Source: Psychrobacillus vulpis (GTDB lineage: Bacteria; Bacillota; Bacilli; Bacillales_A; Planococcaceae). Taken from it: a stretch of 64,000 nucleotides of DNA. The position numbers and the translations under genes are program-made. How positions within the stretch are numbered: the first letter of the stretch is position 1; every line of letters begins with the position of its first letter. This document shows, in pieces, positions 8,075 through 49,872 of the stretch. A model generated the notes under the pieces. The model was not told the DNA's origin and made no database searches. It saw only the letters and a program-made list of their open reading frames with translations. The stretch is from contig NZ_VDGI01000003.1 in the NCBI RefSeq assembly GCF_006861825.1, positions 257,989 to 321,988 of the forward strand, read 5' to 3'.

Positions 8075-8186
8075 AAAAGATAAGAAAGTATAGAAACTTG
8101 GTATGTCATGAACACAGGTATCATGGTCTTTTGTCAAAGGATTCCGTTACAAGTGGAGGCTTTCCGCGGCAGTTGCTTCAGTTCGA

Positions 8187-8485
8187 GGCCACTGAAAAAG
8201 TGTTATTCAAATAAATGTTCTATCAAATAGTCGTTAAGAGAATTTATCGCTTTGGCATTCGCTTTCCGCAGGTCAGCGAAGAGCCTCCGCGGGCCAACAC
8301 GATGTTGGTCATGAAGGCGTTGCCTCAGGAAGAGGCGCCCTTAGCCTTCCTTCCTCTCTGCTGCTTCGTGCGGGGTCTCGTCTGTCTCGCTTTCCCGCAG
8401 GAGTCTCATGCGTTGCGCTAAATTCTCTTAAATAAATTCAGCAAATAGTTCCTACAAAAATACTAATTCGAGTTTTTTAGTGGCC
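8187..8485. mobile_element. 299-bp insertion with GGCCACTGAAAAA ends
   Basis: Terminal inverted repeats GGCCACTGAAAAAG (8187-8200) and TTTTTTAGTGGCC (8473-8485). The same type of end recurs at 8862/9074 and 14777/15571. The interior holds the GC-rich unit 8234-8431. No transposase is present, so it would be non-autonomous. Confidence 0.6.
8234..8431. repeat. GC-rich unit with 17-bp terminal inverted repeats
   Basis: TTAAGAGAATTTATCGC (8234-8250) pairs with 8415-8431 with one mismatch. Between them is the GC-rich core shared by all units in this window (CTTTCCGC...GGCCAACA...GCCTCAGG...CCCGCAGGAGTC). It lies inside the insertion 8187-8485. A 68-codon open frame across it is a by-product of GC-richness. 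Confidence 0.7.
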
Positions 8486-8861
8486 TCCTCGGCACAGCTG
8501 GCGTGTCTTCGACTAATGCTTAACCCTCAGGAGTCGCCGCTTGTAAAGAAATCCATCTAGTTTAGAAGAATGTAATCATGCTCCGTCTATTTATTGATTT
8601 TACGGAGTACTTCCTTCTGCATTTATCGTGATAATTGTAGACATACATAGATGAGTCGAATCTTTTGAGCAAGTTTTTCTCTTTTTAGAAATAGAGTAAA
8701 AGAAGTAGTCATGCTATCTTTGTTTCGCTTACGATTCAAATGTTCGTCATTTTACTTATAAACAGCTGCAATTATGAATAGTTCCATATTAGTTGATTAG
8801 AGCGCAGGTGGCGACTTCTGCTGGAATAGCATTAGCATAAGGCCCTGTAGGAACGTAGTGA

Positions 8862-47636: not shown

Positions 47637-48236
47637 ATGTTTATTAGACCATGTGAAGGTCGAATTACTTCTCGCTTTGGTCAATTGCGAAAAGATACGG
47701 CTACCGGTGTTTGGAGGGCGCATAAAGGGGTCGACTTTGGTAAGGATGGAAATCCAGTCATTAAAGCATCTGCAAATGGGACTGTGACAAGAGCCAAACT
47801 TATTGGTGGTTATGGAAATGCGGTAACTATAGCACATGTAATCGACGGTAAAAAGTACGAAACATTATATGCTCACCTAAATACAATTTCGGTAAAAGTG
47901 GGACAAGTCGTGAAACAAGGTCAACAAATTGGGATAAAAGGTAATACGGGTAATAGTACCGGAACCCATCTGCATTTTGAAATCCACATTCCTTCGTACG
48001 GTCCTGGTCAGCCAAATGCTGTAAATCCTTTACATTATATGTACGATTTTAGTGTGGAAGAGATGCAAAAACTTTTAGTGAAAATTGGTTACAAGTTAAC
48101 TGTGGATGGAATAGAAGGACAAGTAACGGAAGCTGCTATTAAAGCATTTCAGCAGTCAAAAGGATTAACAGTAGATGGAATAATAGGACCCGTTACTTTA
48201 GAAGCACTTAATAAGGCAATTGAATTGCAGAAGTAG
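47637..48236 (+). CDS. M23 endopeptidase with C-terminal peptidoglycan-binding domain (endolysin-like)
   Basis: This 199-residue protein has a LytM/M23 metallopeptidase domain (about 5-130) with zinc motifs HKGVDFG (His29 and Asp33) and HLHFEIH, followed by a PG_binding_1 domain (about 138-198, VEEMQKLLVKIGYKLTVDGI...GLTVDGIIGPVT). It cleaves peptide cross-links of peptidoglycan. There is no signal peptide, which is typical of phage endolysins released by a holin and not of exported housekeeping hydrolases. AGGAGG precedes the ATG. The sequence just after the stop carries frameshifted coding debris, so a longer ancestral protein or a prophage lysis cassette is likely. Confidence 0.85.
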   Translation: MFIRPCEGRITSRFGQLRKDTATGVWRAHKGVDFGKDGNPVIKASANGTVTRAKLIGGYGNAVTIAHVIDGKKYETLYAHLNTISVKVGQVVKQGQQIGIKGNTGNSTGTHLHFEIHIPSYGPGQPNAVNPLHYMYDFSVEEMQKLLVKIGYKLTVDGIEGQVTEAAIKAFQQSKGLTVDGIIGPVTLEALNKAIELQK

Positions 48237-48439: not shown

Positions 48440-48465
48440 AGACTTGTCCCTTATGGGGCAAGTCT
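48440..48465 (+). repeat. Left copy of a 26-bp terminator hairpin
   Basis: AGACTTGTCCC-ttat-GGGGCAAGTCT, identical to 49038-49063 at all 26 positions, but without a T-tract because the insert follows directly. Confidence 0.9.
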
Positions 48466-48517
48466 CAGCTTGTCGATAAATGCATTTTTATGAATCAAAA
48501 TTGTGCTTTTCCTGTAG

Positions 48518-48700
48518 CAATCGCTCCAGGCGGACGCTTTCCGCGGGCTCGCGCCAAGCCTCGGGCCAACAGGATGTTGGTCATGAAAGCGTTGCCGCAG
48601 GACGCGGCGATCTTAGCCTTCCTACTTATTGCCTGCGGGGTCTTGGACTGTCTCGCTGTCCCGCAGGAGTCGCCGCCTTCCGCTTATTTTTAACTTCAAT
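48518..48700. repeat. GC-rich unit inside the 572-bp insert
   Basis: Core in the reverse orientation: GGCGGACGCTTTCCGCGGG ... CCGCAGGAGTCGCCGCC. It matches the GTTGATT subgroup in the core, but I see no clean terminal inverted repeats. Confidence 0.65.
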
Positions 48701-48837
48701 AAACAGAAAAGTGGACAATTAAAGCCTTTTCACTTGATGAGATGGGATAGTCAATCCGTTATTTTTATCAGATATTTCGAGAAACATTGATTGATCACAG
48801 CATCTTCAGATTTCCACTTTCCACTTTTGAAAAATAG

Positions 48838-48985
48838 GCAGGGCCCGCCATGGAGACTCCTGTGGGAATAGCTTGAGCTGAAGACCCCGCAGGAAAGACA
48901 CTGGCCGAACTTTATTTGGCCAGTGTCTTTGCAGTGACGAGGAGGCTGAAGCCAAGTCCACGGAAAGCGAAGTGGCGGGACCCGC
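48838..48985. repeat. GC-rich unit with GCAGGGCCCGCCA ends and an internal hairpin
   Basis: GCAGGGCCCGCCA (48838-48850) pairs with 48973-48985 at 11 of 13 positions. In the middle lies a perfect 13-bp stem, AAAGACACTGGCC/GGCCAGTGTCTTT (48894-48930), not found in sister units, which resembles a captured terminator. Confidence 0.7.
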
Positions 48986-49037
48986 TGATTCTCTTATGCA
49001 TCTCTATTCATTGTAAAACGAATTTGTCTACAGTCTG

Positions 49038-49067
49038 AGACTTGTCCCTTATGGGGCAAGTCTTTTT
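49038..49067 (+). terminator. Intrinsic terminator, right copy of the duplicated hairpin
   Basis: The 26-nt hairpin AGACTTGTCCC...GGGGCAAGTCT followed by TTTT. This is the copy with a T-tract. Confidence 0.85.
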
Positions 49068-49251: not shown

Positions 49252-49872
49252 ATGGAGGCACAAAATAAAAGGAAAATAGAGCGAAAGAAACAACTTCAAG
49301 CTATTGCATTGGAAATGTTTGCTATGCAAGGATACGATCAGACAAAAATCTCTGATATTGTAGCAAGGGCAAATGTCTCTCAAGGAACTTTTTATTGGTA
49401 CTTTAAAAGTAAAGAGATGATAGCCAATGAAATGCTTACGCAAGGGCGTGAAGCAATCTTAAAAACCATATCCACTGGTTATCGATCAGAAAAAGGGACT
49501 ATACATGATTCGTTCATGTCTTCCAGCCGTCTTTTTGAACAACTTTTCAGTTTTGCAAAAGAAAATCATTATTTTATGATGATCCTTATAAAAGGTATTC
49601 ATTCTCAACAAACTTTACAGCTAAAAGTGGATGAGATAAAAAATGATATGCAACAAGCTTTTGCTAAAAATATTCGGAGAGCATCCGAACTGAACATGAT
49701 GCCACGGGAAGTAGATCCAGCATTACACGCTGTATTTGTAATGAGTTTGTTAGAAGGAATTTTATCTCGCTGGTTATTTCAATCATCAGAAGAGGAATGG
49801 CAGTACTTGAAATTAGAGCAATTAGTTGAAAAAACTGTTCAGTTCGAATTTTTTGGATTGTTTGGAGTTTAA
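49252..49872 (+). CDS. TetR/AcrR family transcriptional regulator
   Basis: This 206-residue regulator has the N-terminal helix-turn-helix (ALEMFAMQGYDQTKISDIVA...VSQGTFYWYFKSKEMI, about 18-58) and a helical ligand-binding domain. GGGAG precedes the ATG. It lies 18 bases upstream of an amino-acid ABC transporter operon and probably controls it together with itself, through the palindrome at 49217-49236. The inducer is unknown. Confidence 0.9.
   Translation: MEAQNKRKIERKKQLQAIALEMFAMQGYDQTKISDIVARANVSQGTFYWYFKSKEMIANEMLTQGREAILKTISTGYRSEKGTIHDSFMSSSRLFEQLFSFAKENHYFMMILIKGIHSQQTLQLKVDEIKNDMQQAFAKNIRRASELNMMPREVDPALHAVFVMSLLEGILSRWLFQSSEEEWQYLKLEQLVEKTVQFEFFGLFGV

Follow-up and report, generated by a model that had tools for sequence, protein, structure and literature searches.

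Small elements of Psychrobacillus vulpis, and IS1182 elements with matching ends, duplicate whole hairpins at their insertion sites

The window locus

The window (the whole stretch of 64,000 nucleotides of the Psychrobacillus vulpis genome that was analysed) carries an insert between a gene for an M23 peptidase and one for a TetR-type regulator, and this insert is bordered on both sides by the same 26-bp sequence, AGACTTGTCCCTTATGGGGCAAGTCT (Table 1). The two copies are direct repeats identical at 26/26 positions, and each folds into an 11-bp stem with a 4-nt loop (-9.4 kcal/mol; 0 of 200 shuffles were as good). Four T residues follow the right copy only; the left copy, which begins ~200 bp beyond the stop of the peptidase gene, runs straight into the insert. 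The insert starts with CAGCTTGTCGATAAAT and terminates in the reverse complement of CAGACTGTAGACAAAT, giving it inverted ends, and the list of open reading frames contains no transposase-sized frame within its 572 bp. It is a non-autonomous element (MITE), whose mobilisation in trans is inferred. A blastn search of the window stretch against plasmids returned no match.

A preliminary description made from the sequence alone had reported the exact 26-bp hairpin pair around a 572-bp insert with inverted ends and a T-tract at the right copy only, and both statements held. Its further claim that the duplication is precisely one hairpin held in part: the palindrome of the original target reaches four A-T pairs past the duplication, which therefore comprises the stable stem and one A-T pair and falls short of the longest palindrome. 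The hairpin was not picked up by a simple terminator scan, possibly through counting of the A/T-tract as stem, and the label "terminator" thus rests on the hairpin and its T-tract downstream of a gene.

Two matches to the Bacillaceae-1 RNA family lie in the window, one of them within the element. By coordinate comparison, 9 of the 34 matches in the window genome fall inside 8 hairpin-flanked elements; it is possible that the family is in part a transposon-borne repeat and not a free-standing sRNA gene.

Table 1. Features at the insertion locus, and a further RNA match, in window coordinates.
Feature	Position	Strand	Remarks
Second Bacillaceae-1 match (RF01690)	8294-8360	-	
M23 peptidase with peptidoglycan-binding domain, upstream gene	47637..48236	+	Pfam
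Left hairpin copy	48440..48465	+	T-tract lost; element directly after
MITE-like element, non-autonomous, 572 bp	48466..49037	.	ORF list, related copies
Left terminal inverted repeat CAGCTTGTCGATAAAT	48466..48481	+	
Bacillaceae-1 RNA (Rfam RF01690) within element	48566..48631	-	67.6 bits, cut-off 35
Right terminal inverted repeat CAGACTGTAGACAAAT	49022..49037	-	
Right hairpin copy	49038..49063	+	T-tract kept (49064-49067); still complete terminator
TetR-type regulator, downstream gene	49252..49872	+	Pfam

Hairpins around the element family and at empty sites

A BLAST search with the insert gave 88 matches in the window genome, fragments counted, and thus multiple dispersed copies (e.g., 89% identity over positions 1-572 and 85% over 2-570). 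The end pattern CAGNYTGTMGACAAAT, allowing up to one mismatch, matched the genome 75 times, against a single match for the reversed pattern. Without any selection on the flanks, a hairpin with a stem score of at least 7 adjoined 55 of these 75 ends vs. 1351 of 20000 random positions, and one with a score of at least 9 adjoined 41/75 vs. 273/20000; the remaining 20 ends stay below a score of 7.

Pairing of facing ends 100-2000 bp apart, again blind to the flanks, yielded 17 elements. The preliminary description had held that copies not flanked by a duplicated hairpin would count against it; in 16 of the 17 pairs a repeat lying 0-5 bp from the element is common to both flanks (local scores 13.5-33.5, with a maximum of 9.5 among 3210 shuffled flank pairs). 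At 15 of the 16, this repeat is hairpin-forming, with one copy or both scoring 7 or more. The sixteenth (L135) has a common repeat that is weak as a hairpin (scores 3 and 5), and the seventeenth pair (C4:117729-118748) has unlike hairpins on its two sides. From site to site the duplicated hairpins are unrelated in sequence, while the element is conserved.

A looser, flank-assisted list comprises 33 insertions of 162 to 1685 bp with repeats of 20-36 bp, but for one of 11 bp. At least one copy is a palindrome in exact register (at least 6 of the outer 8 pairs) at 29 of the 33, vs. 832 of 20000 single random windows, and a T- or A-rich tail is present at 30. The copies are exact duplicates at seven insertions and have drifted at the remainder; for exact copies such as that in the window, the suggestion of a recent event is plausible. 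This curated set was partly picked by flank similarity and the better of the two copies was scored, and we therefore take rates from the flank-blind sets. The 11-bp case (L127, C23:154731 of the window genome) was scored with wrong boundaries (3/12); by eye, it is a 243-bp element with similar ends and only an 11-bp palindromic repeat, AAGTATATACT. Seventeen MITE pairs in relatives were chosen by repeat score (19 rows, leaving out a window-genome copy and the autonomous G009 element described below) and give no rate.

Elsewhere in the window genome (L146, C25:20276-20311), two terminal repeats, CAGACTGTAGACAAAT..ATTTGTCTACAGTC, form an isolated 36-bp hairpin with a T-run, beside a terminator-like palindrome.

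We searched for unoccupied sites with queries composed of the left flank, one hairpin and the right flank of nine other insertions (2940 nt) in 19 genomes of the genus, the window's own included. The nine blocks were drawn from 16 joined ones (5225 nt); the window locus is in neither set, though it was among 33 earlier blocks. A single hairpin without insert was found in 25 spanning alignments (30 loci fetched) at five of the nine insertion sites (12 at L111, nine at L017, two at L115 and one each at L133 and L018). Because these alignments were picked as spanning, the absence of an insert follows from the choice, and what they show is that one-hairpin sites exist. The check for empty sites in relatives that the preliminary description had proposed is thus met at other sites; at the window locus itself no usable empty site or ortholog was found in the relatives examined, because the flanks there are too diverged. 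The left flank of L111 looks by eye like the end of a sigma-factor gene, and one relative (G011) carries a different element with a related left end inside this same terminator, which therefore appears to have been struck more than once. The remaining relatives gave one-sided matches or other DNA at the site (G011 and G016).

Autonomous IS1182 elements, duplication edges and a loop-duplicating branch

An end-pattern search within the genus led to a 1702-bp element in another genome (G009). Its ends match the pattern, its transposase occupies two frames, and it is flanked by two identical copies of a 24-bp hairpin (1/1 copies). A search with its transposase identified six copies with an intact frame in a one-contig genome (G013), five of 1707 bp and one interrupted by ~1.8 kb outside the gene. 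All six are flanked by exact whole-hairpin duplications, of 29, 35, 28, 27, 24 and 22 bp, the last belonging to the interrupted copy. The 1707-bp element has the ends CAGACTGTAGACAAAC / CAGAGTGTAGACAAAA bounding one transposase gene, fitting the IS1182 criterion of about 1.5-2 kb. Its 458-aa transposase scores 466.1 bits against NF033551 (IS1182, NCBIfam; cut-off 270) and contains the Pfam domains DUF772, DDE_Tnp_1_6 and DDE_Tnp_1; plasmid relatives are annotated as IS1182 family transposase, and no PDB chain matched by sequence at E<=0.01. The MITE ends, CAGCTTGTCGATAAAT / CAGACTGTAGACAAAT, resemble the IS ends, CAGA.TGTAGACAAA, and both kinds of element duplicate the same type of target, a whole hairpin. 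The preliminary hint at IS1182 elements with long, variable duplications thus held, the autonomous element with matching ends being of that family. An intact transposase of this branch was not found in the draft window genome, only fragments, and the partnership with the MITE is consequently inferred from the common ends.

Two further samples extend the pattern. In another genome (G014), an element with such ends breaks the assembly, and 14 contig ends (14 of 15 end matches, those at contig ends, were used) pair uniquely into seven sites. A hairpin is common to both sides at all seven, with a length difference in one pair; the body of the element was not seen in this assembly, only a degraded transposase fragment of the branch. 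From plasmids, 15 copies were fetched by similarity out of 1489 matching records. Eight show an exact whole-hairpin duplication of 19-35 bp, in Peribacillus, Sutcliffiella, Cytobacillus, Listeria, Enterococcus (ISEfa7), Staphylococcus arlettae, Rhizobium and Providencia, and the transposases out to Rhizobium and Providencia are ~40% identical at the protein level. Four (L369, L372, L374 and L376) have a hairpin on each side that is not the same one, which recombination between copies, or else a deletion mode, could account for, and no paired ends were obtained for the other three (L370, L402 and L403). Among 13 duplicated copies for which the span of the best stem was scored, 11 have a repeat of exactly that length; at L373 and L400 the repeat exceeds it by 2 and 4 bp.

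Whole-hairpin duplication is accordingly the rule across insertions; empty sites hold a single hairpin, and autonomous IS1182 elements with matching ends make the same duplication.

By eye, terminator-like hairpins also lie immediately within each end of the autonomous elements (L298 in G009; L302-L315 in G014), and the terminal inverted repeat itself makes up one of these hairpins. A window-type MITE (L005, C34:157286) sits in a hairpin resembling the internal hairpin of the G009 element, near transposase remnants of the same branch; it may be a MITE inside the terminator of its own parent, a reading we offer only as a possibility.

We examined the position of the duplication edge at those sites that are well preserved (n = 32), of which 17 come from the 33 insertions of the window genome and 15 from autonomous copies. 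The first base of the duplication is A at 27/32 and the last is T at 29/32, and the first G-C pair is set in by one position from the edge at 18/32. Between 0 and 9 further pairs can form outside the duplication, where A-T pairing often continues outward. We therefore place the cut where the foot of the stable stem borders the A-tract and T-tract; a linear feature, the border between G+C and A-tract, could conceivably contribute to the edge.

The window genome also encodes an intact IS1182 transposase (C23:352541-353956). We considered this enzyme as the mobiliser of the MITE and rejected it, as its relatives have the ends GAGG.CACTGAAAAAG and repeats of 7-9 bp. The best 80 of 248 loci with relatives of this transposase were taken, and both ends with a repeat were found by pattern in 51; the other 29 had no such pair, and an unguided end search (68/80) chose false ends in several. 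Repeats are 8 bp long in 27 copies, 9 bp in 23 and 7 bp in one. Arms that pair beside the repeat (at least 7 of 8, in strict register) occur in 25 of the 51, vs. 1.8 on average and 8 at most over 2000 shuffles. This branch, with hosts that include Lysinibacillus, Paenibacillus and Sporosarcina (L188-L267), inserts at terminator loops and splits the hairpin; with its constant 8-9 bp, it may conceivably read linear palindromes instead. Whole-hairpin and loop transposases are 20-24% identical. A quick-method tree separates eight whole-hairpin and 20 loop transposases on the two sides of one branch (22 loop rows were prepared and two dropped as too short); long branches meet in it and the Sphingomonas row is unreliable.

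Around the second Bacillaceae-1 match, GAGGCCACTGAAAAA and TTTTTTAGTGGCCTC face each other at window positions 8185-8487. This segment looks as if it could be a short relative of the loop-duplicating branch; a clean 8-9 bp repeat was not seen at its ends.

Mechanism, rival explanations and meaning

Hairpin targeting in the IS1182 family has precedent. IS1272 and TnSha1 of Staphylococcus target inverted repeats or terminator hairpins whatever their sequence (PMC4923244, PMC5678879), and the review by Siguier et al. (2015) reportedly says that some IS1182 members target palindromes. In IS1272, the target hairpin is lost in part or whole without duplication, whereas the window branch duplicates it entire; the IS1272 criterion of stem-loop replacement, a deleted hairpin and no duplication, is not met, since the flank-blind pairs, with the exception of one, keep their flank repeat. 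The longest open frame beside fabI on a Staphylococcus argenteus plasmid (L401, a sixteenth plasmid stretch used for protein comparison only), which we take to be IS1272, is 23-29% identical to transposases of the window branch over 147-309 aa. Closer to the window branch is ISEfa7 of Enterococcus faecium (IS1182 family), with ends CAGACTGTAGACAAAG/A and a 55% identical transposase; one of its two copies has a 21-bp whole-hairpin duplication and the other is surrounded by unlike hairpins, and its hairpin is weaker.

The stem-loop model of Wan et al. (2017) foresees the outcome seen here. In its pathway b, joining at the 5' feet of the hairpin duplicates the entire stem-loop (PMC5678879, Fig. 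13). That pathway is hypothetical, without an example in the relevant sections of the paper, whose data concern the deletion pathway; its outcome is observed in the window branch. The loop-duplicating elements (ends GAGGCCACTGAAAAAG, transposase also in the window genome) share the family and the terminator-hairpin targets, and match pathway c; unlike the window branch, they duplicate 8-9 bp at the loop and split the hairpin. REP-targeting insertion sequences and other bacterial MITEs are likewise palindrome-targeted or small, non-autonomous and intergenic (PMC1525189, PMC10969869). REP targets form sequence families, whereas the targets of the window element are unrelated in sequence. In the titles and abstract beginnings of the open-licence literature searched, we found no report of whole-hairpin duplication; ISfinder entries may already list such repeats. 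Hairpin targeting by IS1182 is thus already known, and the duplication of a whole hairpin, with a length that follows the hairpin, is likely to be new within the literature searched.

A DDE transposase joins the two 3' ends of its element to the target strands, and repair duplicates the stretch between the joints. We consider it very likely that the element is a MITE mobilised by IS1182 and targeted to hairpins, with the duplication set by the hairpin; mobilisation in trans, the cruciform substrate, the positions of strand transfer and the harmlessness of insertion are inferred. In this view, an IS1182-family DDE transposase, whose own element has matching ends (CAG..TGT.GACAAA), would move the MITE in trans and pick an intrinsic-terminator hairpin. 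On each target strand, one of the element's two 3' ends would be joined at the hairpin's 5' foot, and gap repair would then copy the complete hairpin to both sides. In the simplest picture the target would be an extruded cruciform, whose four-way junction brings the two 5' feet together however long the arms are; the length of the duplication (19-36 bp in nearly all cases) would thus depend on the hairpin instead of on a fixed stagger. Because one copy retains its T-tract and stays a complete terminator, insertion should be nearly harmless to flanking genes. The criterion for structure-dependent targeting, unrelated target sequences with a cut set by the hairpin, is met. The proposal that the element recognises terminators as folded structures best accounts for duplications that keep to the hairpin at sites of unrelated sequence; action of the transposase on an extruded structure in the cell remains an inference, with no biochemistry behind it.

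Among the rival explanations, the best supported is a transposase dimer that reads a linear palindrome as two half-sites without extrusion, terminators being the commonest strong palindromes. In its favour, duplications of the loop branch have a fixed length of 8-9 bp (50 of 51 copies) and are centred on the palindrome, as expected of a linear dimer, and an edge 1 bp outside the first G-C pair, as at 18 of the 32 sites above, is a linear landmark. Against it, the spacing in the window branch changes with the hairpin, over a range of 19 to 36 bp and in targets of unrelated sequence, where a rigid dimer predicts a constant stagger; we regard this rival as unlikely. It is also improbable, in our judgement, that recognition takes place on single-stranded DNA at a replication fork, or during transcriptional pausing at the terminator, with repair copying the hairpin. 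Hairpins do form on single strands too, and our data do not separate these cases; DDE transposases of this kind (DUF772/DDE_Tnp_1_6), however, act on double-stranded targets as far as is known.

Untargeted insertion, with selection retaining only insertions into terminators downstream of genes, would suit the intergenic position of the sites, often right after a stop codon (by eye, uncounted). Selection cannot place the duplication in register with the hairpin at site after site, nor in every intact-frame copy of G013, and we hold this explanation to be very unlikely. A reading without target duplication, in which both hairpins belong to the element or to a segmental duplication, could not be excluded from the window locus alone; it is all but excluded by hairpins that vary between sites while the element is conserved, and by the single hairpin without insert in relatives at five sites. 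A chance repeat is ruled out by the flank-blind end and pair statistics and by the empty sites.

Our preferred reading, an enzyme of the window branch acting at the feet of a folded hairpin, admits a bolder extension, for and against which the evidence is finely balanced. The target of IS1182 would generally be the folded DNA hairpin, with each transposase branch cutting at its own landmark: the 5' foot, duplicating the whole hairpin; the loop, duplicating 8-9 bp; or the 3' foot, with loss of the hairpin, as in IS1272 from the literature. The 5'-foot enzyme would grip the four-way junction of the cruciform, with the shape of the target dictating the length. If this is true, the DDE transposase of the 5'-foot branch would have no fixed stagger.

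DDE transposases usually give a near-constant duplication length, the enzyme fixing the distance between the cuts. A length of 19-36 bp that follows the hairpin points to an enzyme that recognises the shape of DNA in living cells, and provides many natural footprints of this. The findings turn a pathway that was hypothetical in 2017 into an observed rule tied to one transposase branch, and make cruciform extrusion at terminators testable. They also suggest a benign landing strategy, in which the element inserts into a terminator yet one complete copy remains, and transposons that land at the ends of genes could serve as tools.
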